Positions 8,705 to 22,066 of a stretch of DNA of 39,119 bases are shown here, one piece after another (the first letter of the stretch is position 1; each line of letters starts with the position of its first letter). The DNA is from Nitrospirota bacterium (GTDB lineage: Bacteria > Nitrospirota > Nitrospiria > Nitrospirales > UBA8639). The stretch is from positions 1 through 39,119 of the forward strand of contig JAQBUF010000029.1 of the NCBI GenBank assembly GCA_027623995.1. The letters are read 5' to 3'. The notes under the pieces are model-generated. The model did not search any database and had not been told where the DNA came from. It saw only the letters and a program-made list of their open reading frames with translations. The position numbers were made by a program, and so were the translations under genes.

Positions 8705-9211
8705 CTAACGTGGTTGATGGGTCAGAGGATTATTCATCCCATAAGACATGTGCCGTGGCTGATTTCCAGATATATTTTTCTGAGATAGATCAAGATCAAA
8801 AGATTGGAACTCACGAATACCAATGCCCTCGACAGTCCCCTCTGGAGAAAAACTAATGGCAAAGGAATCTCGGGGGATTTCCTTGGAAAGGGCCAACACC
8901 CCAAATCCCAGGAAATATTGCCATGGATTAATTTTCGGATGGGTGCTCGCATACGCCCAAGACTCGCGTGTCAATCCGCCAGCCGAAGAGACCTGTAAAT
9001 CGGTAGGAGCACCAAAAAGGTGACGAACATCTTCTTTGGTTGTCACCCCTATCTGTACAGTCTCTAGTTGCTCAGGATAGGCGATGCCCGGACTCTTATG
9101 CGTTGCTCCAGCCACCCAATCACCAAATGCCGTACACCCCGTCAAAAACCATAAAAGAATAAAGACACCTAGATGACTCCTGCTTGATATAGATCGAAAA
9201 AAACTTTGCAT
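8705..9211 (-). CDS. Small lipoprotein with BamE/SmpA-like domain
   Basis: The 168-aa protein has a lipoprotein signal peptide with lipobox LTGC (Cys26), so it should be membrane-anchored in the envelope. The segment ETVQIGVTTKEDVRHLFGAPTD (about 50-71) is the typical first helix-turn of the SmpA/OmlA (BamE-like) fold, and WAYAS followed by SFAISFSPEGTVEGIGI matches its beta strands. BamE itself stabilises the outer-membrane protein insertase; many proteins with this fold have other or unknown roles. The C-terminal 30 residues are polar and not family-like. It lies on the same strand as the RND operon, 54 nt downstream of it, and could be its last gene. Confidence 0.75.
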   Translation of the reverse strand: MQSFFRSISSRSHLGVFILLWFLTGCTAFGDWVAGATHKSPGIAYPEQLETVQIGVTTKEDVRHLFGAPTDLQVSSAGGLTRESWAYASTHPKINPWQYFLGFGVLALSKEIPRDSFAISFSPEGTVEGIGIREFQSFDLDLSQKNISGNQPRHMSYGMNNPLTHQPR

Positions 9212-9265: not shown

Positions 9266-12200
9266 TCAATATTGAAATTCTTTGAAGTTGACCCTGAAAA
9301 ATAATGAATATAGCACCGGCACGACACCCAAGGTTAAGAGAGTGGCAAAAAACAGACCCGACATGATCGCGATGGCCATGGGTTCCCACATGGGACCACC
9401 TCCTGTGTACAGCGGAAGAAGTCCACCCACTGTCGTTATCGTCGTCAAGAGAATTGGTCGAAGACGATGTTGGGCTGAGACAATAATCGCTCGGGCGGGC
9501 TCAAGCCCATTGTCTTGGATTTCTGTATTGATTCGATCAATCAACACAATCGCATTGTTAATGATAATGCCAGCCAACGACAGAATACCCAGCATGGTCA
9601 TAAACCCAAAGTACAAGTTGGTCGCATGAAGCCCAATAACGACACCAATGAGCCCTAAGGGAATGGTCAGGAGAATAATCACCGGTTTTCGAATAGAGTT
9701 GAATTGGGCCACCAACAGTAAAAGAATAATCAACCCTGCCACCGGTAACTTTTCGCCGATAGAACTGTTCCCTTTCCCAGACGCTTCCGCTTCACCCCCA
9801 AACTCCCAAAAGTACCCCAACCCCCACGTTTCACTCTCTTGCTTCAGCCAGGGCCCTAACAGCGCATTCACCTCCGTCGCCGTTGTACCTTCATGCAACG
9901 CCGCTTCGATCGACACTGATCGTAACCGATCCCGTCGATGGACAGTAGAAGGCTGCCATTCAATTTCAATATCCGCCACTTGTTTAAGGGGTACGGATTG
10001 TCCCGTAGCTTGGGCATACACATTAATACTTTCCAATTTGGCGATATCATCACGGACGGCACCAACGGACCGAAGGGTCACAGGAATTAATTTATCTTCC
10101 TCACGATATTGCGTAATATCCAATCCCGTCAGATAGGCTTGGAGTGAGGTGGCAACATCCTGGCTGGTCACCCCAGCACGAAGGGCTCGCGGCTGATTCA
10201 CTTGTACGATCAATTTTTTTGATCGACTCCCCCAATCATCGTCGATAAGTTTGGTCCCAGGTATGGATCGAAGTTGAGCTTTCACTTGATCCATAATTTC
10301 AAACAGCTTATCGGTTTCACGACCACTGACTCTCACCACTATAGGGGGATACGTCGGCGGGCCCGTTTCCAATGGTCGAATAATTGCCTTAAGGTCAGGA
10401 TATCGTTCCTGACAGAACAGCTCTAGACGCGAAATCACGAAAGGGAAATCTTCTCGAGAGGTTGTGTTGACGAGCAGGTACGCGAAGTTAGGGCTCGCTT
10501 GCACAGGATTAAACGGGAGGTCAAATCGCGGCGCACTTTCTCCAACAAACGCCCCCCAATTGACGATACCCCCTTTTCGTTCGTCATTCACCATCAGGTG
10601 CTGTCGAATAAAGGTTTCAACATCAGCTACCATCGCATCAGTTTTTTCGATGGGTGTACCATTTGGAAATTCCAGTTTTGCTGTGAATGTGGGTTTATCA
10701 TTGGCCGGAAAAAAATACACGGGCAACTTCCCGAATCCAATCATGGCCAGAAAAAAAATGAATCCTGTAGCTGCCAGGCTCAGCCAGGGATGCCGAACGC
10801 CCAACAACAGAACGCCTCTGTACCGGCGATAAAATGGGCTACTAAAAGGCTCTTCCTCACCAGAAGGCTTCACTCGTAAAAAGAGCACACAAAACAAAGG
10901 AATCATGGTAATAGCCAGAACCCACGAACACAGGAGAGTCAGGGCCACGATGGTAAAGATGGGCGCGGTATATTCTCCAACATTCGACTCGGCCAGATAA
11001 ATTGGTAAGAATGCCGCAGCGGTCGTTAAGGAAGAAGTCAGAAGTGGAATTTTCAGTTCATTGGCGGATTCAATCGCCGCATCCAAGGCACGCTCCCCCG
11101 CACTCATTCGCACCATCGCGGCTTCGGCCATGACAATGGCATTGTCCACCAGAAGACCCAGAGAGATGATCAAGGCCGCCAGAGACATCTGATCAAGCCC
11201 AATCCCAAGTACCGACATACACAAGATGCTCATCACAATCGCCATGGGAATGAGGCTCGCCACAATCAAGCCGGTGCGCAAACCCAAAAAAGCCAGCATG
11301 ACGGCAGTCACAATAATGACGGCCTGAAACAAGCTACTGGTAAAATTTTTGATTTTTTTATCCACGACCTGTGGCTGAAATTGAATCTCATCAAATTCAA
11401 TACCAATGGGAAACTCCTGTTGAGCCTGAGCAATGACACGACGAACTTGTTGCCCCAGCTTGGTAATGTTGCCTCCCTTTTGCATGGAAATGCCCAACCC
11501 TAAGGCTGGCTCAGCATTGGACCGCATGAGTGTATCCGGAGGATCAATGTATCCTCGATACACGTCGACCAGATCCTCGAGAAACAGCACCTCTCGACTA
11601 CCCGGCAAACTCACCACCGTCCGGCGAATTTCTTCCACCGATTCAAAATTACCAGAAGGCTCCAAGCCAATTTTTTCATCTGCGGTTTGGATATCGCCAC
11701 CAGGCAACACGATATTTTGTGCTTCCAACAATTGTTGCAGCTGCCCAGGAGAAATCCCCAGCTCCGATAACCGTGAGTTGTTATAGTCCAAAAAAATTCG
11801 TTCTTCTTGGTCCCCGTATATATCGACTTTAGCCACTTCACTCTGGCGCAGCAGTTCATCACGCACATCATCAGCGACATTTTTAATGTCGCGATAGTTA
11901 AATCCATCGCCCGTCACCGTCAGGACAATGCCAAACACATCACCAAACTCATCATTCACAAAAGGGCCTCGAACTCCGTCAGGCAAATCTTGCGCGGCCT
12001 TATCAACTTTGCGCCGCAAATTATCCCAAATCGGGCGCATGTTCCGGTGGCTTTCAAGGATGTTCACGTAGATCATCGAAACTCCGGTCTTGGACTCACT
12101 CCGCACAAAGTCTAGCTCCGTGATTTCCTGAATAGCTTTTTCGAGCTTATCCGTCACTAATTGTTCCACCCGCTCGGGACTGGCCCCCGGAAAATACGTC

Positions 12201-12343
12201 ATCACCAAGGCCACACGAATAATAAAACCAGGATCTTCGTTTCGAGGAAGTTTTTGGTAGGAGGAAATACCCGCAAGGAAAATGATTAATAGTGCAATCG
12301 CTGTAATCCGATTGTTATCAATCGCGAACTTTGTGATATTCAT
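9266..12343 (-). CDS. RND-family efflux transporter permease
   Basis: This 1025-aa inner-membrane proton-driven exporter has the duplicated RND layout: TM1 near residue 10, a large periplasmic loop, TM2-6 (about 335-490), a second loop, and TM7-12 (about 530-550 and 860-1015). The N-terminus with PRNEDPGFIIRVALV and FPGASPERVEQLV is typical of the AcrB/ACR_tran family. In AcrB the proton relay uses Asp407/Asp408 in TM4 and Lys940 in TM10. Here the TM4 motif reads LLVDNAIVMAEA and the TM10 motif GIIINNAIVLID, so only one Asp is kept and Lys is replaced by Asn, as in one subgroup of RND pumps; the substrate cannot be predicted. It overlaps the upstream adaptor gene by 4 nt, so the two are coupled, and it forms the third gene of the operon channel-adaptor-pump. 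Confidence 0.93.
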   Translation of the reverse strand: MNITKFAIDNNRITAIALLIIFLAGISSYQKLPRNEDPGFIIRVALVMTYFPGASPERVEQLVTDKLEKAIQEITELDFVRSESKTGVSMIYVNILESHRNMRPIWDNLRRKVDKAAQDLPDGVRGPFVNDEFGDVFGIVLTVTGDGFNYRDIKNVADDVRDELLRQSEVAKVDIYGDQEERIFLDYNNSRLSELGISPGQLQQLLEAQNIVLPGGDIQTADEKIGLEPSGNFESVEEIRRTVVSLPGSREVLFLEDLVDVYRGYIDPPDTLMRSNAEPALGLGISMQKGGNITKLGQQVRRVIAQAQQEFPIGIEFDEIQFQPQVVDKKIKNFTSSLFQAVIIVTAVMLAFLGLRTGLIVASLIPMAIVMSILCMSVLGIGLDQMSLAALIISLGLLVDNAIVMAEAAMVRMSAGERALDAAIESANELKIPLLTSSLTTAAAFLPIYLAESNVGEYTAPIFTIVALTLLCSWVLAITMIPLFCVLFLRVKPSGEEEPFSSPFYRRYRGVLLLGVRHPWLSLAATGFIFFLAMIGFGKLPVYFFPANDKPTFTAKLEFPNGTPIEKTDAMVADVETFIRQHLMVNDERKGGIVNWGAFVGESAPRFDLPFNPVQASPNFAYLLVNTTSREDFPFVISRLELFCQERYPDLKAIIRPLETGPPTYPPIVVRVSGRETDKLFEIMDQVKAQLRSIPGTKLIDDDWGSRSKKLIVQVNQPRALRAGVTSQDVATSLQAYLTGLDITQYREEDKLIPVTLRSVGAVRDDIAKLESINVYAQATGQSVPLKQVADIEIEWQPSTVHRRDRLRSVSIEAALHEGTTATEVNALLGPWLKQESETWGLGYFWEFGGEAEASGKGNSSIGEKLPVAGLIILLLLVAQFNSIRKPVIILLTIPLGLIGVVIGLHATNLYFGFMTMLGILSLAGIIINNAIVLIDRINTEIQDNGLEPARAIIVSAQHRLRPILLTTITTVGGLLPLYTGGGPMWEPMAIAIMSGLFFATLLTLGVVPVLYSLFFRVNFKEFQY

Positions 12344-13467
12344 AATTTGTTCGCCACGTCATCCATCAACCGCACCTGTTGCCCGTCATGAATACGCCGG
12401 ACCCCAGCCGTCACAATGCGCGTCCCATCTGGCAGACCATCAATAATTTCTAACCCTTCCGCACTTAATTCTCCGATCTCAACCGCCCTCCGCTTGACCC
12501 TGGCCCGTCCATCCACGATGTCTTCAATCACGAAGACATAGCGACCGTCACGATCTTCCCCCACCGCCACTGACGGAACAAGAATTCGTGCCTCCCCTTT
12601 CCGACCCTCAAATCGAAAAGTTACTTCAGCGGCCAGACCTGATCGAAACCCTGGCACTAATTGTTGTAATTGTACCGTGACTGGAAAGGTCGTCCCGGTT
12701 TGACCAGACGCGACGCCCACCTTGGTCACCAAGGCCGGAAATTGAAGACCAGGAATAGCATCAAACGTCGCGGTCACGGGACTGCCATTTTTAACCCGCG
12801 CAATGAACACTTCCGGGATCCCCACCTCGACTTCCAAGCGAGACCCACACACAACTTCTAAGATTATTTTTCCCGCCTGGACATTTTCATTTACCTCCAC
12901 CGGAACTGACGCCACATAACACGCCGCCGGGGCAGCCAACCGGGTATAGCCGAGTTGAAATTTGGCCAGCTCTAAATCCTTTGAACTCGATGACACTTCC
13001 GCCCGTGAAGATTCAGCCGCAGCCCGAGCTTGATCCAAATCGTTCCGGGAGGCATTACGATTTTCATACAATGCCCGGACCCGCGAATAATCTGCCGACG
13101 TACTTCGAGCCGAGGCTTTTGCGCGTGCCAGGGCTGCTTCTGATCGTTGCACTTGCAATTGGTAATCCTGTGGATCCAAGGCTGCCAATACTTGGCCTTG
13201 ACTCACTTTATCCCCCACGTTCACAAACACCCGCTGGATGGTCCCCGCCACCTTAAAACTTAATTTGGCTTCCAAGCCCGCTTGGGCTTTCCCAGAAAAT
13301 GTTCGCACTTGGTCGCTTCCCGACAGAAACACCTGCTCCGACCGAACAAGCCGAAGCGTCACTTCGTTCTCTGTTGGTAGTTGCTCGCTACAAGCGCCAA
13401 GCAGCGCGGCCAGGACCAATAATCCAAGGGGCACCATACCGCGATAAGAATTTTTCATTCCTAACAT
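12340..13467 (-). CDS. RND efflux periplasmic adaptor (membrane fusion) lipoprotein
   Basis: The protein bridges the inner-membrane pump and outer-membrane channel. With the ATG at 13467 it is 375 aa; I chose this start because AGAAGG lies 8 nt upstream, while the frame extends to 13488. A lipoprotein signal with lipobox LLGAC (Cys26) anchors it. The order is typical of HlyD/AcrA adaptors: first half lipoyl motif (VAGTIQRVFVNVGDKVSQGQVLAALDPQDYQLQV), a long alpha-hairpin rich in Ala, Arg and Glu with SRNDLDQARAAAESSRAEV, second lipoyl half (APAACYVASVPVEVNENVQAG), a beta barrel, and a membrane-proximal domain ending DGLPDGTRIVTAGVRRIHDGQQVRL. It overlaps the pump gene by 4 nt and follows the PBP-TolC gene by about 85 nt. 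Confidence 0.92.
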   Translation of the reverse strand: MLGMKNSYRGMVPLGLLVLAALLGACSEQLPTENEVTLRLVRSEQVFLSGSDQVRTFSGKAQAGLEAKLSFKVAGTIQRVFVNVGDKVSQGQVLAALDPQDYQLQVQRSEAALARAKASARSTSADYSRVRALYENRNASRNDLDQARAAAESSRAEVSSSSKDLELAKFQLGYTRLAAPAACYVASVPVEVNENVQAGKIILEVVCGSRLEVEVGIPEVFIARVKNGSPVTATFDAIPGLQFPALVTKVGVASGQTGTTFPVTVQLQQLVPGFRSGLAAEVTFRFEGRKGEARILVPSVAVGEDRDGRYVFVIEDIVDGRARVKRRAVEIGELSAEGLEIIDGLPDGTRIVTAGVRRIHDGQQVRLMDDVANKL

Positions 13468-13552
13468 CTCAGAAACCTTCTTCATCAAAGATTAGGGATC
13501 ACAAAAGCACAAACCATGGAGCCTTGGCTTTTGGCCCATTACTCGGTTTTTT

Positions 13553-15985
13553 TTAAAATGGGCTATTCGTCATGGCATGTGACGGTGTCACTCCAGCCTG
13601 TTCAAAAAATTCCGTCAGTCGCGTAAACCACATCCCACGTTCTTCTTCATACAAAAAATAATCGAATCGTCCGACGGCTCGTTCAATATTCATGAAATCA
13701 ATCAGGAAATCGTAGACCGCATTCGCGGCGGCTTCATTGGCATTCAATGCCGCATTTTGACTATTGAGTAATTTAATAATATCGACAGCGCCTCGCGAGT
13801 ATTGGTCCACAACTAATTCCAAATTCTTTCCAGACGCATCCGAGGCTTCGCGTGAAAGACGAATCCCAGGAAACGAGGCCGAAGCCTGAAACATCGCAGA
13901 CCGAATACGTTCTTCGACGCGCCCTATGGTCGCTTCACGTTCCAACCGAAGTCGTCGTAAATCCTCTAACGCTTTACTCTCAGTGGCTTCCTTACTTCCA
14001 CCACTAAAGAGAGGAAAGGTTAACCCCAGACCCACCGACCATTGCGTGTTGTCCTGCCCTGACCCCAAAGCTGGAGGAGGGCCAGCTTGTCCTACCCCAT
14101 CGGTTGCAAAGCGTTGATCCACATCAGCCTGCAGTGACAGATCCGGCGCCCAATACGCGCGTTGAGTATTGAGCACGATGCGTTCCTGTCCAGCGATCAC
14201 GGCATTGAACCGTTGGATTTCTGGTGAAATGTTGAGACCTTCCTGCACCTGAAAATTTCGGAACAGCCCAAAGTGCATGGGATTACCAATGAAGGTAAAC
14301 AAACGATTGAGATCGCCGAACAACAGTGGATCATGCAAACTCGCTTCATCCGTCAAAAACGGTTCTTCAAGAGGACGATGCAAGGTCCGATTTAAGGCTA
14401 CATTCGCTTGCTTTAATTGGGCTTGGGCCTCAAGGACGGCGATCCGGCCATTCGCAATTTCACTTTCCCATCGATAGACTTCATCTCGCCCAGCAGAACC
14501 CACGGACTCTCGAACGCGTGCGAGTTCAAGGTTGGATCGAGTCAATTTCAGGTTGTCCTTTTGAACCCGCAGGGACGTTTTGGCTCGCAGCACATTCAAA
14601 TACCCGATTGCAGCCTCCAGGAGAATATCCAATCGTAATTCGCCACGTTCGGCTTCCCGAGACAACTGAGTCTTTTCCTGAACCGTGAAATCACTCCAGG
14701 CTTTGTCAGAGTACAACAATTGGGAGAGCGAGCCTGTGGCCCGCATGGTGCGTTCCGGGTTCGCGCCAAAGCCTGAACTGGCTCGATCCTGATCAATCAT
14801 CGTCGCCCGGCTCCCCATGGCGATTTGCGGCAACAGCGCTGATCGTGCATTTCGAATATCCGCTTGTCCGGCCGATACCCGTCGATCCGCAGCAGCCAGA
14901 TCAAGATTCACCGATACGGCTTCTCTTACGACGGCATACAACGACAGTCGTCGTTTCACAAATTCCACATCTTCATTAATGAGATCTGCTTCCGTCAGGA
15001 CTCGAAAGGTGGGCCAGGCTTCCACCGCTCGGGCCGTCGCCATGTTGATGGTCAAACGCTCGGCTTCTGGCAGAGACACTAAAAAACTTCCCGCATCTTC
15101 CCCAAGTAAAATCCGATGAACATTGAGCGCCACTCGACGAGCCAGGCGAAGAGTATTCGTCTCCGGCGCAATCGACGCCAGCAATCCATACTCGACTTCC
15201 TCTCGTCCAAACAACGAAAAACTCGGAAGTTTTCTGTCCACCAATCCTTGGGTCAGCGCTTTAAATTCAGGCAACGGCAGACGTAGGAGGGGTGTGACCA
15301 ATACCGCTTCGGTATCATCGGGAATGGATGCCATGGTCGGCTGAATGTATCTCCCCACTGGCACCGGCGTGATCTCTAATTGACTGGCCTTTGCCGCTCG
15401 TTGGATTTTCACCCCCAATTGTGGCAAGGCTTCGATCACCGCTTGGTCCACAAAGAGTGCCATTTTGGTAAAGGGAAATATTTCTCGATAGGCCTTGACC
15501 GCTCGTTCAAAGGAATGAGGTAAGGACAGATAACTGAGATTTCGGACACCTGATGTGCCTCGACGAAACGGGAGTTCTTGCAACTCAACATCTATCACAA
15601 AGGGTGCCACTGCGGGTTTGGGTAAAAACGGACGGCGCGCGATATCATGAGACGCCAGCACACCCAAGGCTAACACGAGATCGATACTTGGATCGGCCAA
15701 TAAATAATCAACGGCTTTCTTGATGCCTTTGACCGACCAATTCCCGTGGACGAACCTATCTTTTGGAAAGGTCACGTCATACTCGCCTCGTGTCAGCTCA
15801 AGAATTTATTTCAGAAATAATTTGCTTTTCACGACCTTGCCCCACCCATAATCTTGGTAGGGTCCATCGGCTACGATCCCGATTCGGACTTTGGGTAATC
15901 CAGATTTGGCAAAGGACGGCGGCGAACTACAGAGGCCCACTAACAAGACCAGAAAAAGCAGGTAAACCCAAGGACGGTTTAACAT
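13553..15985 (-). pseudogene. Fusion of ABC_sub_bind-type periplasmic binding domain and TolC-type channel, split by one in-frame TAA
   Basis: The uninterrupted gene would encode about 810 aa and be the first gene of the RND operon. The first piece (start at 15985) has a signal peptide, MLNRPWVYLLFLVLLVGLC then SFA, and the first strand of a binding-protein fold, VRIGIVADGPY. TAA at 15806-15808 stops it, but the same frame continues without a gap (ILELTRGEYDVTFPKD), so a single GAA-to-TAA change would explain the break. The second piece (an open frame from GTG 15775, 740 aa) completes the binding domain; its end, RLTINMATARAVEAWPTF then LTEADLI, resembles the C-terminus of the ABC substrate-binding family PF04392. 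From about residue 290 of that piece it becomes an outer-membrane efflux protein (SALLPQIAMGSR, FPLFSGGSKEA). The downstream piece alone has no signal peptide and could not be exported. It may be a recent pseudogene, a sequencing error or a read-through gene. Confidence 0.8.
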
Positions 15986-16655: not shown

Positions 16656-16805
16656 TGACGACGCGATGGGTGCGAACGAGGAGGAGTGGTGCCATGATCT
16701 GGAGGACCCCGTCACAGGAATAACCAAGCAAAGGGTTCACCTCATTCCACCAAAATTGCGATTGATCCCAATTAACCAGCCAACCCTTCCACGCATGTGT
16801 TGATT

Positions 16806-17930
16806 ATGACCGAACTCAGAGTAACCCGACCCCTTGAACATACGATACTTGTCGAGTTGATCGGACATTGGCGGCTGCAAGAACATCCTCCATTGATGCA
16901 AGACCTTGTTCGGGAATTTCGCTCCAATCCACCTGCACAATTTTTTCGATTCAATGCCCAGGCCTTGGAAAGCTGGGACACGGGGCTCATTACGTTTCTC
17001 CTGAGATTGCAACGTATTTGTCACCGAAAACACATGACCATCGACTTTTCGGGTTTGCCCCAGGGTGCACAACGACTCATTCATCTGGCCACAGTCATCC
17101 CTGAACGCCAAGAGAACATGAGATTGCGTGCCAAGGAGGGACGAGTGTTCCGCCTAGTGACCAAGGCGATCAGCACAACCGACGGAGCCCAGGATATGGT
17201 GGCCTTTGTTGGTGAGACGTTTATAACATTTTTCAGATTCCTTCGAGGCAGAGCCCAATATCGCCAATCTGATTTAGCCTTAGCCATTCAGGAATGTGGA
17301 GCCAAGGCATTGCCAATTGTCACACTAATCAGCGTCCTCGTCGGTCTGATTTTGGCCTTTGTCGGGGCCGTGCAATTGAAGCAATTCGGGGCTCAGATTT
17401 ATGTGGCCAATTTGGTTGGTCTCGGCATGGCCAGAGAAATGGGCGCCATGATGACGGCCGTGATCATGGCCGGACGTACTGGAGCCGCCTTCGCGGCTCA
17501 GCTGGGAACGATGCGAGTGAATCAGGAGATTGATGCGTTCATCACCATGGGCATTTCTCCCATGGAGTTTCTTGTGCTCCCTCGGATGCTGGCCCTCATG
17601 CTCATGATGCCGCTGCTCTGCATCTATTCCGACATTCTAGGAATTCTGGGAGGAGCCATCGTCGGGGTCACGATGCTGGACTTGGGGGCAGCTCAATATT
17701 TTTATCAAACACAAGAGGCCTTAACATTCACGGACTTTTCGGTTGGGATAGTAAAAAGTGTGGTGTTTGGAGTACTCGTCGCTATTGCAGGATGCTTACG
17801 CGGCATGCAATGTGGATCCAGTTCCGCCGCTGTTGGATTGGCCACGACTTCAGCTGTCGTCACAGGCATTGTGTTTATTGTGGTATCAGATGCTATTCTC
17901 ACTGTGATGTACGATATTCTGGGAGTATAA
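16806..17930 (+). CDS. mlaE: MlaE-family ABC transporter permease with N-terminal STAS-like domain
   Basis: MlaE is the inner-membrane permease of the phospholipid transport complex MlaFEDB. The 374-aa protein carries an N-terminal STAS-like domain of about 110 residues (FRFNAQALESWDTGLITFLL, then IDFSGLPQGAQRLI) followed by the MlaE permease domain with the hallmark segment GLGMAREMGAMMTAVIMAGR and five or six membrane helices ending near the C-terminus. In E. coli the STAS protein MlaB is separate; here it seems fused to the permease, a known variant. GTG 16797 and TTG 16800 are alternative starts in the same frame; no good Shine-Dalgarno sequence is visible for any of them. It is the first gene of an operon with mlaF, mlaD and a PqiC-like gene. 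Confidence 0.93.
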   Translation: MTELRVTRPLEHTILVELIGHWRLQEHPPLMQDLVREFRSNPPAQFFRFNAQALESWDTGLITFLLRLQRICHRKHMTIDFSGLPQGAQRLIHLATVIPERQENMRLRAKEGRVFRLVTKAISTTDGAQDMVAFVGETFITFFRFLRGRAQYRQSDLALAIQECGAKALPIVTLISVLVGLILAFVGAVQLKQFGAQIYVANLVGLGMAREMGAMMTAVIMAGRTGAAFAAQLGTMRVNQEIDAFITMGISPMEFLVLPRMLALMLMMPLLCIYSDILGILGGAIVGVTMLDLGAAQYFYQTQEALTFTDFSVGIVKSVVFGVLVAIAGCLRGMQCGSSSAAVGLATTSAVVTGIVFIVVSDAILTVMYDILGV

Positions 17931-17931
17931 A

Positions 17932-18045
17932 TTCGTGAAGCGTATCTCGTATTTCGTATCTCGTGAAAGAGTTTTCGGAGGGTCCTCGATGGGATGTTTG
18001 CCTTTCTTTGCACGAAATACGCTTCACGAGATACGAGATACGTTT
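17932..18045. repeat. Hairpin-forming degenerate CGTGAAGCGTATCTCGT repeat between mlaE and mlaF
   Basis: The mlaE-mlaF gap is filled by copies of the words CGTGAAGCGTAT and TCGTATCTCGT in both orientations. TCGTATCTCGTGAA (17954-17967) pairs perfectly with TTCACGAGATACGA (18023-18036). Related words occur at 22893-22981, 23889-23960, 28183-28215 and 38620-38705. In mRNA it would form a strong stem inside the mla operon. Confidence 0.75.
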
Positions 18046-18079
18046 TTCAAGATACGCATCAGGGACGAAGGAATGTTTC

Positions 18080-18844
18080 ATGACTGAGCCTGACATCACC
18101 GTTCGCGATCTGACAATGGCCTACGGGGACGTGGTGATCCAACGCGACCTCACCTTTACCGTGAACCAGGGTGATATTTTCATTATTATGGGCGGGAGTG
18201 GATGCGGCAAAAGCACGTTGCTTCGACATATGATCGGGCTGAAAGAGCCTGCGCACGGGGATATCCACTTTTCAGGGGAAAGTTTTTGGCAAGCCGATGA
18301 CGAGACTCGTGTCCGTTTGATGCGACGCTGTGGAGTGCTCTTCCAAAGTGGCGCATTGTGGAGTTCGATGTCCTTAGCAGAAAATGTCGGCCTCCCCCTC
18401 CATGAATATACGGAACTGAACGATAAGCAAATTCAAGAAGTAGTCTCCTTCAAACTTGCGCTCGTAGGGTTGGCTGGCTTTGGAGACTATTACCCCAGTG
18501 AACTAAGTGGCGGGATGCAGAAGCGTGCAGGCTTGGCCAGGGCCATGGCCCTCGATCCTGACATCTTATTTTTTGATGAACCCTCCGCCGGGCTAGACCC
18601 GATTAGTTCTCGTCATCTTGATGATTTGATTCTCGAACTGCGCGATAGTTTAGGGGCAACGATTGTCGTCGTCACTCACGAATTAGCCAGTATTTTTGCG
18701 ATTGGGAACAATTCAGTGTTCCTGGACGCCGACACCAAAACCATGCTGGCCTCAGGCCCTCCGCATGCAATGCTGGCTGATTGTGGCATTCCTGTTATCC
18801 AACAATTTCTCAGACGTGGTGAAGTGGCCTCCGTCGCCCCTTAA
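18080..18844 (+). CDS. mlaF: MlaF-family ABC transporter ATPase
   Basis: This is the cytoplasmic ATPase that powers Mla-type lipid transport. With the ATG at 18080 the product is 254 aa; AAGGA lies 8 nt upstream, and the frame extension back to 17963 is made only of translated repeat DNA, so I reject it. The motifs are Walker A GGSGCGKST (about 38-46), Q-loop LFQSGALWSSMSLAENV, signature LSGGMQKRAGLARA, Walker B ILFFDEPSAGLDP, and H-loop VVVTHELASIF. The GALWSSMSLAENV segment after the Q-loop and the GMQKR signature are specific to the MlaF/Ttg2A family. It is separated from mlaE by the hairpin repeat and is followed 9 nt later by mlaD. Confidence 0.95.
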   Translation: MTEPDITVRDLTMAYGDVVIQRDLTFTVNQGDIFIIMGGSGCGKSTLLRHMIGLKEPAHGDIHFSGESFWQADDETRVRLMRRCGVLFQSGALWSSMSLAENVGLPLHEYTELNDKQIQEVVSFKLALVGLAGFGDYYPSELSGGMQKRAGLARAMALDPDILFFDEPSAGLDPISSRHLDDLILELRDSLGATIVVVTHELASIFAIGNNSVFLDADTKTMLASGPPHAMLADCGIPVIQQFLRRGEVASVAP

Positions 18845-18853
18845 CGAACCGAT

Positions 18854-20011
18854 ATGAGTCGAAAAGCTAACCCCACAACTATTGGTGTGTTCGTCATTGG
18901 AGCCCTTTTACTGCTCATCATTGGCGTCATGATTTTTGGCTCCGGGAAACTGCTCTCAAGAAAAATACCATGGGTGTTGCACTTCGATGAATCCATTAAA
19001 GGATTGAAAATTGGCGCGGCCGTTAATTTTCGTGGTGTCAAAATCGGATCGGTGAACGACATCAAAGTCACATTTGACATCAAGGACAATTCGATTCGAA
19101 CCCCGGTCCATATTGAAATCGAACCAGACCGCATTACCGAGATAGGAACCTTGCCGGTCAAAGAAAAACTCACCGACCGAATTCTCGATACTATTTTTGA
19201 AATGGAACTCACGACCGGAGATGATCGACGTCACGCCATGGATCTCATCCAGCGTGGGTTGCGGGCAAGACTAGAGATGCAAAGTTTTGTGACAGGGCAA
19301 CTGGCCATTGGTCTGGATTTTCACCCAGACACCCCCATCACCTTGCACCATTATGACGACCCCTATCCCGAATTTCCCACCATTCCCACAAGCTTTGAAG
19401 AAATTACCGCAAGGCTCGAAGATATTCCTTTAGAGGACTTAGTCAATGGAGTCCTCCGTGCCGTTCAAGGTATCGAACGCTTAGTCAACGCACCGGAATT
19501 ACTTGAAACGATTCGAACATTGAAGGGAACCATGGAACATGTTCAAGGGCTCAGCAAAACCTTGGACACGAGGGTCGCCTCATTAGCCGATAGCCTAGAG
19601 AAAACATTAGAGGCCGCTCAGGGGGCGTTGAATCAAGCAGAAACGACCCTCGCGATGAAGGAAGGGCCATCGGGAGAGTTGGCTGAGGAGCTTCGCGATA
19701 CCCTAAAAGCCACTCAAGCCGCCATGGATCAAGCCAACGCGACCCTTACCTTACAAGAAGGGCCAGCAGCCCAATTGGTGAAAGATTTACGCACCACGGC
19801 CAAAACCATTGACCAAACTTTTGAGCAAACGAAAGAGGCAATCTCTACGGCCAAAGGCATCGTTGATGAAAATTCTGACTTGCGATATGAGTTAGGCAAT
19901 ACCCTGGATGAACTGTCAGCGGCGGCACGCTCCATCCGAAATATGGCGGAATACTTGGAACGACACCCGGAAGCATTAATCCATGGCAAAGGGGAATCCA
20001 AGGAGAAGTGA
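18854..20011 (+). CDS. mlaD: MlaD-family MCE-domain substrate-binding protein
   Basis: MlaD is a membrane-anchored hexameric ring that holds lipid on the periplasmic face of the Mla complex. The 385-aa protein has one N-terminal membrane helix (about 8-28, IGVFVIGALLLLIIGVMIFG) and the MCE domain (about 38-115), with the signature IKGLKIGAAVNFRGVKIGSV. A second conserved stretch, RGLRARLEMQSFVTGQLAIGLDF, follows. The rest (about 190-370) is alpha-helical with repeated units that read like coiled coil (TTLAMKEGPSGELAEELRDT and ATLTLQEGPAAQLVKDLRTT), more like PqiB/YebT-type or long MCE proteins than the short E. coli MlaD of 183 aa. It lies between mlaF and a PqiC-like lipoprotein gene, with gaps of 9 nt and 1 nt. 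Confidence 0.93.
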   Translation: MSRKANPTTIGVFVIGALLLLIIGVMIFGSGKLLSRKIPWVLHFDESIKGLKIGAAVNFRGVKIGSVNDIKVTFDIKDNSIRTPVHIEIEPDRITEIGTLPVKEKLTDRILDTIFEMELTTGDDRRHAMDLIQRGLRARLEMQSFVTGQLAIGLDFHPDTPITLHHYDDPYPEFPTIPTSFEEITARLEDIPLEDLVNGVLRAVQGIERLVNAPELLETIRTLKGTMEHVQGLSKTLDTRVASLADSLEKTLEAAQGALNQAETTLAMKEGPSGELAEELRDTLKATQAAMDQANATLTLQEGPAAQLVKDLRTTAKTIDQTFEQTKEAISTAKGIVDENSDLRYELGNTLDELSAAARSIRNMAEYLERHPEALIHGKGESKEK

Positions 20012-20012
20012 T

Positions 20013-20639
20013 ATGAGAACACTTACGAATCTTTTGACCTGGCTGACCGCGCTTCTTTGCTGTCTCAGTCTTGCCGGCTGTGGAGCCACCTCTCAGCCTG
20101 CCAAGTTTTATTTACTCAATTCAATTCCGTCAACGGAATCAGCTGAGACCAAAGTCCCATCGGGTCTAGCCCTTGGCATCGGGCCTATCACTATTCCTGA
20201 ATATGTGGATCGACCACAAATCGTTACCAGAATCAGCACCAATGAACTCAGCTTGGCCGAGTTCCATAAATGGGCCGAGCCTCTCAAAGATAATATTCCT
20301 CAAGTCCTGGCTGACAATATGTCGGTCTTGCTGAACACCGAACATGTGGCGACGTACCCATGGAAACGTCACACACCCATTGATTATCAAGTCACTATCA
20401 ATATTACCAGACTTGACACCATCGCTGAAAAGGAAGCTCATCTCGTGGCGCGGTGGCATATTTTCGGAGAGGACACGCAGACTATCCTCGACACACAGAC
20501 GTCTCACTTCAAAACCACGCTTCCAAGCTCAGATTACGCAGCCATCGTCTCTGCCTTAAATCACACCATCAACGACCTCAGCCGGGAAATCGCCAAATCA
20601 CTGGTTCGTGTTCATTCAAACACAACAAAAACGAAATAG
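20013..20639 (+). CDS. PqiC-like (DUF330) ABC-type transport auxiliary lipoprotein
   Basis: This 208-aa lipoprotein has a lipobox LAGC (Cys23). PqiC-type proteins sit at the inner face of the outer membrane and help MCE tunnels such as PqiB dock there. The motifs are FYLLNSIP (about 32-39), LGIGPITIPEYVDRPQIVTR (about 56-75) and a WAEPLKDNIPQVLADNMSVLL segment (about 88-108), all typical of DUF330. I chose ATG 20013 because AAGGAG lies 8 nt before it and the signal peptide starts there; the frame runs back to 19983, inside mlaD. It starts 1 nt after the mlaD stop, so it is co-translated. Together with the long MlaD this suggests that the system bridges the periplasm without a shuttle; no MlaC is seen. 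Confidence 0.9.
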   Translation: MRTLTNLLTWLTALLCCLSLAGCGATSQPAKFYLLNSIPSTESAETKVPSGLALGIGPITIPEYVDRPQIVTRISTNELSLAEFHKWAEPLKDNIPQVLADNMSVLLNTEHVATYPWKRHTPIDYQVTINITRLDTIAEKEAHLVARWHIFGEDTQTILDTQTSHFKTTLPSSDYAAIVSALNHTINDLSREIAKSLVRVHSNTTKTK

Positions 20640-20881: not shown

Positions 20882-22066
20882 ATGATTGAGCGAAATATCC
20901 AATCCAGAATCCAGGGCTTGCTAAAACGAAACCCGGCGGTGGCTCTCATAGGCCCACGACAAGTCGGGAAAACAACAGTGGCCCTGAGTATCGCAGGCCA
21001 TTGCCCATCGACCTACCTGGATCTGGAAAATCCTCGAGATTTGGCCAAAGTCAGCGATATTGAAGCCTTTCATGTAGAGAACAGGGAAAAGCTTATCATT
21101 ATCGATGAGATTCAACGTCTCCCTGAAATTTTTGCCACCCTTCGTGGAATCATTGATAAGGAACGCAGACGTGGTGCCAAAGTCGGGCAATTCCTGTTTC
21201 TCGGATCGGCCTCACTTGAGCTGCTCAAACAAACGAGTGAATCGCTTGCTGGAAGACTCGCATATGTTGAATTGTGTCCCGTCGATAGCCTTGAATGGCT
21301 CGAATACCAAAAGGGAACAACGCTGCAATCCCAGCTCAACCGACTATGGCTCCGTGGGGGCTTTCCTGAAAGTCTACTCACCAAATCCGATGAGGACAGT
21401 CTTGCCTGGCGAGAAGATTTTCTCCGAACCTACCTTGAACGTGACATTCCACAACTCGGCCCACGTATTCCCACTGAAACCTTACGCCGCTTTTGGACGA
21501 TGCTGGCACACCATCAAGGCGCCATGATCAATGCCGCACACCTTGCGAGAAATCTTGGAGTGAGCGGACAGTCTGTGACCCGGTACTTGGATCTCTTCGT
21601 GGATCTGTTGTTAATTCGCCGTCTCCAACCGTGGACGAGCAATATCGGTAAACGTCTGATCCGAGCTCCTAAAATCTATGTGCGAGATAGTGGGATCACT
21701 CATGCCTTGCTCAATATTCAGACTTTCAACGATTTGATGGGACATCCTGTCATTGGCGGAAGTTGGGAAGGCTTTGTCATTGAAAATATTCTTGCTGTCA
21801 CCTCCTCACGAATAAAGGCCTACTTTTATCGAACTTCAGGTGGAGCAGAAATTGATTTATTGCTTGAGCTGACGAGTAGAGAAAAATGGGCGATTGAGAT
21901 TAAGCGTAGCAGTGCGCCAGCACTATCTAGAGGATTTTATACGGCATGTGAAGATGTGCAGGCTACCAAGCGTTTTGTGGTCTATGCGGGAGAAGACACC
22001 TTTCCGCTCAGTCAAAAAACCCGTGCCATTTCGCTCACCGATCTTATGAAGGAACTCAACCAATAA
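20882..22066 (+). CDS. AAA_14 / DUF4143 ATPase
   Basis: This 394-aa protein combines an N-terminal AAA_14 P-loop ATPase and a C-terminal DUF4143 domain. Walker A is GPRQVGKTT (24-32), Walker B is LIIIDEIQRLP (about 71-81), and a sensor-like FLFLGSASLELLKQTSESLAGR follows. The middle has a winged-helix-like part (HLARNLGVSGQSVTRYLDLFVDLLLIRRL). The DUF4143 end has SWEGFVIEN and GGAEIDLLLE plus WAIEIKRS, which look like a PD-(D/E)XK nuclease-like core (E/D...EIK). The family is widespread, often horizontally transferred and of unknown function. It is monocistronic, 242 nt after the mla operon; that gap holds nothing I recognise. No Shine-Dalgarno sequence is visible before the ATG. Confidence 0.9.
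   Translation: MIERNIQSRIQGLLKRNPAVALIGPRQVGKTTVALSIAGHCPSTYLDLENPRDLAKVSDIEAFHVENREKLIIIDEIQRLPEIFATLRGIIDKERRRGAKVGQFLFLGSASLELLKQTSESLAGRLAYVELCPVDSLEWLEYQKGTTLQSQLNRLWLRGGFPESLLTKSDEDSLAWREDFLRTYLERDIPQLGPRIPTETLRRFWTMLAHHQGAMINAAHLARNLGVSGQSVTRYLDLFVDLLLIRRLQPWTSNIGKRLIRAPKIYVRDSGITHALLNIQTFNDLMGHPVIGGSWEGFVIENILAVTSSRIKAYFYRTSGGAEIDLLLELTSREKWAIEIKRSSAPALSRGFYTACEDVQATKRFVVYAGEDTFPLSQKTRAISLTDLMKELNQ

Follow-up and report, generated by a model that had tools for sequence, protein, structure and literature searches.

A clade of TolC-type outer-membrane channels with a PF04392-type domain at the N-terminus, retained through exchanges of RND and ABC pumps

A gene in a draft genome of a Nitrospirota bacterium (GCA_027623995.1; the window, that is, the whole stretch analysed here, is 39,119 nucleotides of contig JAQBUF010000029.1) joins, in this order, a signal peptide, a domain of the PF04392 group of binding proteins and a TolC-type channel. 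It belongs to a widespread clade in which the channel has a complete binding-protein domain of its own and has kept it through exchanges of the whole pump. TolC-type channels are usually described as passive ducts, with their opening set by adaptor and pump. The gene codes for the outer-membrane part of a tripartite exporter, from a subfamily that carries the PF04392 domain on the channel N-terminus, and a binding or bracing function would thus be placed on the outer-membrane component itself. Taken as a whole, the explanation that we favour, at about an even chance of being right, is that the added domain forms a collar by which the channel is stabilised or gated, perhaps in response to a ligand. 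The features of the locus are as follows.

13553..15985, minus strand: fusion gene for a signal peptide, a PF04392-type domain and a TolC-type channel (from the translation and from uninterrupted homologues)
15908..15985, minus strand: Sec-type signal peptide, residues ~1-26, without a lipobox (read from the sequence)
15806..15808, minus strand: in-frame TAA at codon 60, a sense codon here in 7/7 close relatives
14975..15895, minus strand: N-domain, residues ~31-337, predicted to be a complete PF04392-type domain with the type I periplasmic-binding fold (from family-level Pfam matches, profile matches in the PDB, and an AlphaFold2 model with structure search)
13649..14947, minus strand: TolC-type outer-membrane channel, residues ~347-779, with two OEP repeats (PF02321; alignment with TolC)
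12340..13488, minus strand: RND-type periplasmic adaptor (membrane fusion protein) with a lipoprotein-like N-terminus (HlyD_3/HlyD_D23; TIGR01730)
9266..12343, minus strand: RND inner-membrane pump, 1025 aa (ACR_tran; RND_permease models)
8705..9211, minus strand: small predicted lipoprotein after the pump, weakly BamE-like (BamE at 17.3 bits, below the cut-off)

The fusion gene spans 811 codons including its stop and yields 810 residues when the single in-frame TAA is read through; an earlier note on this DNA had placed it at these coordinates, and the gene was verified there, on the minus strand. The note had also put the gene at the head of an RND operon. This is borne out by the adaptor, which scores 235 bits against TIGR01730 RND_mfp (cut-off 94.9), and by the pump that follows, which matches ACR_tran with an E-value of 1.4e-166 and 556 bits. 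Both of these genes are intact, and they overlap by 4 bases. The small BamE-like lipoprotein also occurs in L021 and L024 but is not kept in most loci, and it probably lies outside the operon core. Clustering of all open reading frames brought out no conserved neighbours other than channel, adaptor and pump. A divergent MCE/Mla-type lipid-transport operon (MlaE-ABC-MlaD-auxiliary lipoprotein, 16797-20639, plus strand) starts ~0.8 kb away from the fusion gene and is itself adjoined by a gene for an AAA_14/DUF4143 ATPase (20882-22066, plus strand), and Pqi/MCE genes likewise adjoin the fusion in L020, L023 and L024. Such lipid-transport neighbours were considered as functional evidence and dropped, as they are seen only beside Nitrospirales loci.

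The first 362 residues of the window protein, which contain the N-domain, gave no PF04392 match in Pfam even at an E-value of 10, and phmmer found no solved relative of the domain among PDB sequences. The PF04392 domain that the earlier note had read in these residues is therefore not recovered from the window sequence itself. It is recovered through the relatives: 38/74 of their N-domains match PF04392 at an E-value of 0.01 or better (best, 7e-11) and match no other family. Full fused proteins from L029 (40.1 bits) and from Sulfuricurvum kujiense (38.6 bits) lie above the PF04392 gathering score, while one from Splendidivirga barely exceeds it (26.0 versus 25.9 bits). A profile built from the N-domain family finds 3LKV in the PDB with an E-value of 7.6e-12, along with 3LFT and 6HNI. 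These same three are the nearest solved structures, by Foldseek, to an AlphaFold2 model of the domain (pLDDT 90.1; E-values of ~1e-15), and they align with it at Z-scores of 25-26 over ~290 residues; for 3LKV, the Z-score is 26.1 over 290 residues. Other binding-protein families begin at Z-scores of 16-17, with the exception of a substrate-binding protein from Rhodothermus that is matched in part (17-19 over ~150 residues). The proteins of 3LKV, 3LFT and 6HNI carry Phe, Trp and Tyr (PMC6816091). The N-domain family thus matches PF04392 and the modelled fold matches that of its solved members; together, these indicate that the N-domain is complete and of the PF04392 group. Modelling thus recovers the complete binding-protein fold that had been claimed.

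The channel half requires no such detour. In the restored protein, PF02321 is matched with an E-value of 7.5e-35 and 120.9 bits (cut-off 22) over two repeats, in agreement with the earlier call. In a full-length AlphaFold2 model (pLDDT 87.9), residues 320-752 align with residues 1-414 of mature TolC (1EK9) with a Z-score of 29.3 over 400 residues at 3.1 Å, such that the TolC fold is present at full length, with its beta strands and long helices. The channel is also genetically linked to adaptor and inner-membrane pump genes.

The fusion recurs well beyond the window. Seven close relatives (G001, G002, G021, G013, G025, G027 and G031) carry it uninterrupted, in frames of 821-885 codons. Scanning a single genome for each species gave 99 loci, of which 80 were kept; two short peptide patterns had served to pre-select them, which biases conservation within the patterns and makes the counts lower bounds. 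The loci are found in Nitrospirota, Thermodesulfobacteriota, Acidobacteriota, Gemmatimonadota, Gammaproteobacteria, Bacteroidota, candidate division KSB1 and Chlamydiota, among others. N-domain and channel share one frame in 75 of the 80; the exceptions comprise two loci that end with their contig and three in which a stop or frameshift divides the gene (L026, L075 and L082). A later frameshift, within the channel, occurs in L028 and L036. In L026, located on the complete MAG chromosome CP070692.1, the fused gene has an in-frame TAA at 11003-11005, where the binding domain gives way to the channel, apparently either a sequence error or a split version. A 955-residue OEP frame in G037 was tried as another fusion and rejected, as Pfam shows OEP only. 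That the window copy has no Pfam match for its N-domain might suggest that faulty annotation or assembly had by chance put a piece of sequence next to a channel gene. This is refuted by the 75 continuous fusions in independent assemblies from many phyla, and by a further fusion on the complete plasmid pSULKU01 of cultured Sulfuricurvum kujiense; we give it next to no probability. Rather, the fusion is old and conserved. The same fusion beside RND genes, for which the earlier note had suggested looking, is found in many genomes; the note was right in its two domain calls, in taking the N-domain as complete and in the RND operon, and the fusion is real and widespread. Current annotation hides the architecture. 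For instance, the fused channel of S. kujiense (WP_041667226.1) is labelled only 'ABC transporter substrate binding protein'.

Partner genes differ among the loci. Layout A, channel-adaptor-RND, accounts for 37 of the 80, layout B, adaptor-RND-channel, for 15, and layout C, in which the channel follows a YhiI-RbbA-YhhJ ABC exporter, for 13. Most of the other 15 lie at contig ends, but four of them (L026, L029, L033 and L039) have long flanks with no recognised partner on the same strand. Layout D, channel-YhiI-RbbA-YhhJ, was found in L213-L216, from a different family within the window's order, and on pSULKU01 (L217, 110308-117564). On the plasmid, the operon is flanked on either side by a TetR-type regulator gene and has phospholipase genes nearby. 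Identity of the channel to that of the window has a median of ~43% in each of A, B and C. The RND pump is 53% identical to the window's in A and 33% in B, and the adaptor is 46% identical in A, 29% in B and 25% in C.

In a tree of 97 channels, which contains long branches and a limited sample of unfused sequences, the fused channels split from 27 unfused Nitrospirota channels with an SH-aLRT of 91. A tree of 62 fused proteins resolves B, C and D each as one clade (support 100). Layout D falls among relatives of the window, and there are two changes of pump class. Forcing all ABC-linked channels into a single clade costs 182 log-likelihood units and is rejected (AU p 7.4e-6). Across 296 Nitrospirota genomes, fused channels match with E-values of 1e-106 or better, except that the one in G324 is cut off by its contig end; the next in line are unfused and 23-29% identical, and no unfused close relative of the channel was found in this set. 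On this sequence evidence, the fused channels form one clade, within which the channel has been kept while adaptor and pump were replaced, by members of two RND families and, at least twice, by RbbA-type ABC exporters. Repeated pump changes under one fused-channel clade imply that the N-domain goes with the channel and not with the pump. The earlier note's view of the fusion as part of an RND pump is accordingly too narrow, since in two lineages or more the same fused channel serves ABC exporters of the RbbA type. As the domain was kept through the exchange of two unrelated pump classes, it probably serves the channel itself.

Where the domain sits on the channel bears on how it might do so. 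Residue 320 of the model corresponds to residue 1 of 1EK9, and the N-domain ends near residue 310, leaving a link of ~9 residues; the helix turns that make up the channel entrance lie near residues 470 and 706. The equatorial domain of TolC is described as holding helix H1 and as belting the middle of the periplasmic barrel (PMC8277102). The coiled coils of TolC pivot at this domain on opening, and YbjP binds TolC there in a 3:3 complex (PMC13095208). The modelled N-domain would therefore attach at the equatorial belt, away from the periplasmic entrance. The earlier note had seated it on that entrance, a placement that attachment at TolC residue 1 does not support. The full-length structure is a monomer model, from which we infer the trimeric collar: three binding domains would surround the channel at its equatorial belt, between the outer membrane and the entrance, at the same height as the YbjP clamp on E. 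coli TolC. Such a collar would stabilise the channel and tune its assembly or opening, perhaps by closure of the two lobes on a periplasmic ligand, and it probably would not feed substrate into the pump.

This geometry also weighs on the idea of loading at the channel, raised in the earlier note. In this view, the N-domain would capture the export substrate and pass it to the channel or pump, and so raise export efficiency. PF04392 proteins do bind the substrates of ABC importers, as CD0873 binds tyrosine (PMC6816091), and the fusion shares its operons with exporters. The attachment at the equator, however, is away from both pump and entrance, and the N-domain was kept while pumps of unrelated class, probably with different substrates, were swapped. 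Because of the geometry and these swaps, loading of substrate into the channel is the less likely role, and we regard it as improbable. Substrate sensing, which the earlier note had also suggested, may still apply.

Whether a ligand is bound at all was approached by comparing the N-domain signature of the fused family with 25 standalone PF04392 proteins. Common to both sets are G81, P97, D105, N122, G240 and N287; near-invariant or strongly preferred in the fused set only are D13, E33, W56, K96, P101, Y125 and A255. Position 206 is Asp in 14/25 of the standalone proteins versus Leu in 68/74 of the fused ones, a replacement implying that the fused family has at the least an altered version of the importers' ligand site. 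The strand ends that face the cleft are no more conserved than the rest of the domain (p 0.79), a result that would argue against one shared ligand. It is also what would be expected if the N-domain had lost ligand binding and served purely as a structural collar, bracing the equator of a non-lipidated channel in the way that E. coli TolC is braced by the lipoprotein YbjP. The modelled attachment at the equatorial domain, to which YbjP also binds (PMC13095208), is in keeping with such bracing. A hydrophobic segment precedes the N-domain in 76/76 testable relatives and a lipobox is lacking in 74/76, so an extra brace could help. A brace of this kind would not, however, readily account for an entire two-lobe fold kept at high model confidence in very divergent members, or for D13, G14, G81 and D105, which lie just past the cleft-lining strands and stay nearly invariant. 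We treat bracing without a ligand as a tentative possibility.

The PF04392 fold is also joined to PAS and histidine-kinase domains in Nitrospirota (L201, L202, L203, L205 and L207; in L205, the PF04392-PAS frame runs off the contig after PAS). These proteins are apparently periplasmic sensor kinases; they point to a use of the fold in sensing as well and offer a precedent for a sensory role. The N-domain may likewise respond to a ligand, although ligand binding is here putative. In its fullest form, the ligand-responsive version of the collar would have the N-domain close on a small molecule in the periplasm and so open or shut the channel, or recruit it, whichever pump drives export. We hold this specific form to be somewhat doubtful; were it true, export would be controlled at the outer-membrane end, independently of an RND or ABC pump. 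With the fused clade in hand, a response of an exit duct to a ligand can be tested for.

The TAA at codon 60 of the window gene concerns this copy and not the family. It is either recent or a sequence error in a draft of 110 contigs. If real, it would leave a fragment of ~59 residues, signal peptide included, and no exported channel would be made from the gene, because the next start lies past the signal peptide. The gene could then be a decaying pseudogene and the system without function here, and both the absence of the TAA from all relatives and the patchy occurrence of the fusion system in the family (8/60 genomes) are compatible with this. Yet 750 further codons remain open after the TAA, dN/dS against relatives is ~0.06 (with synonymous sites near saturation), private amino-acid changes show no excess (34 in the window lineage versus 46 in its sister), the pump and adaptor genes are intact, and an error in the draft is equally possible. 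By these measures, the window copy is otherwise under purifying selection, and we put decay at somewhat less than an even chance.

PF04392 and PF02321 are both known families; what appears new, relative to the open-access literature, is their fusion, its breadth and its independence of the pump. A search of that literature found none of the three described, although the architecture may be listed in domain databases, and the one open-licence paper that names both Pfam numbers does so for different proteins. Like TolC and OprM (PF02321), the fused channels have a Sec signal peptide, two OEP repeats, the TolC fold over 400 residues (Z-score of 29) and adjoining adaptor and pump genes; they differ in ~310 additional N-terminal residues, placed right after the signal peptide. 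The unfused channels of Nitrospirota stand apart from the fused clade. With the PF04392 binding proteins CD0873, SP1069 and VC_1101 (6HNI, 3LFT and 3LKV), the N-domain shares the two-lobe fold (Z-scores of 25-26) and family-level sequence similarity. Those, however, are lipoproteins of ABC importers, whereas among the fused proteins only 2/76 have a lipobox-like signal, and their neighbours are genes for exporters and not for a cognate ABC importer. The PF04392-PAS-histidine kinases of Nitrospirota carry the domain too, apparently as a periplasmic sensing module, but their output is a kinase and not a channel. YbjP on TolC offers a parallel in position, with a folded domain in the periplasm set at the equatorial belt; this is demonstrated for YbjP (PMC13095208) and predicted here for the N-domain, which differs in being covalently fused, in belonging to an unrelated family and in accompanying RND and ABC pumps alike. 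Finally, layouts C and D contain the same adaptor, ABC and permease genes as the YhiI-RbbA-YhhJ operon (rbbA, NF033858). To our knowledge, the E. coli version of that operon has no channel gene; layouts C and D include a fused outer-membrane channel of their own, which would be a dedicated channel for RbbA-type ABC exporters.
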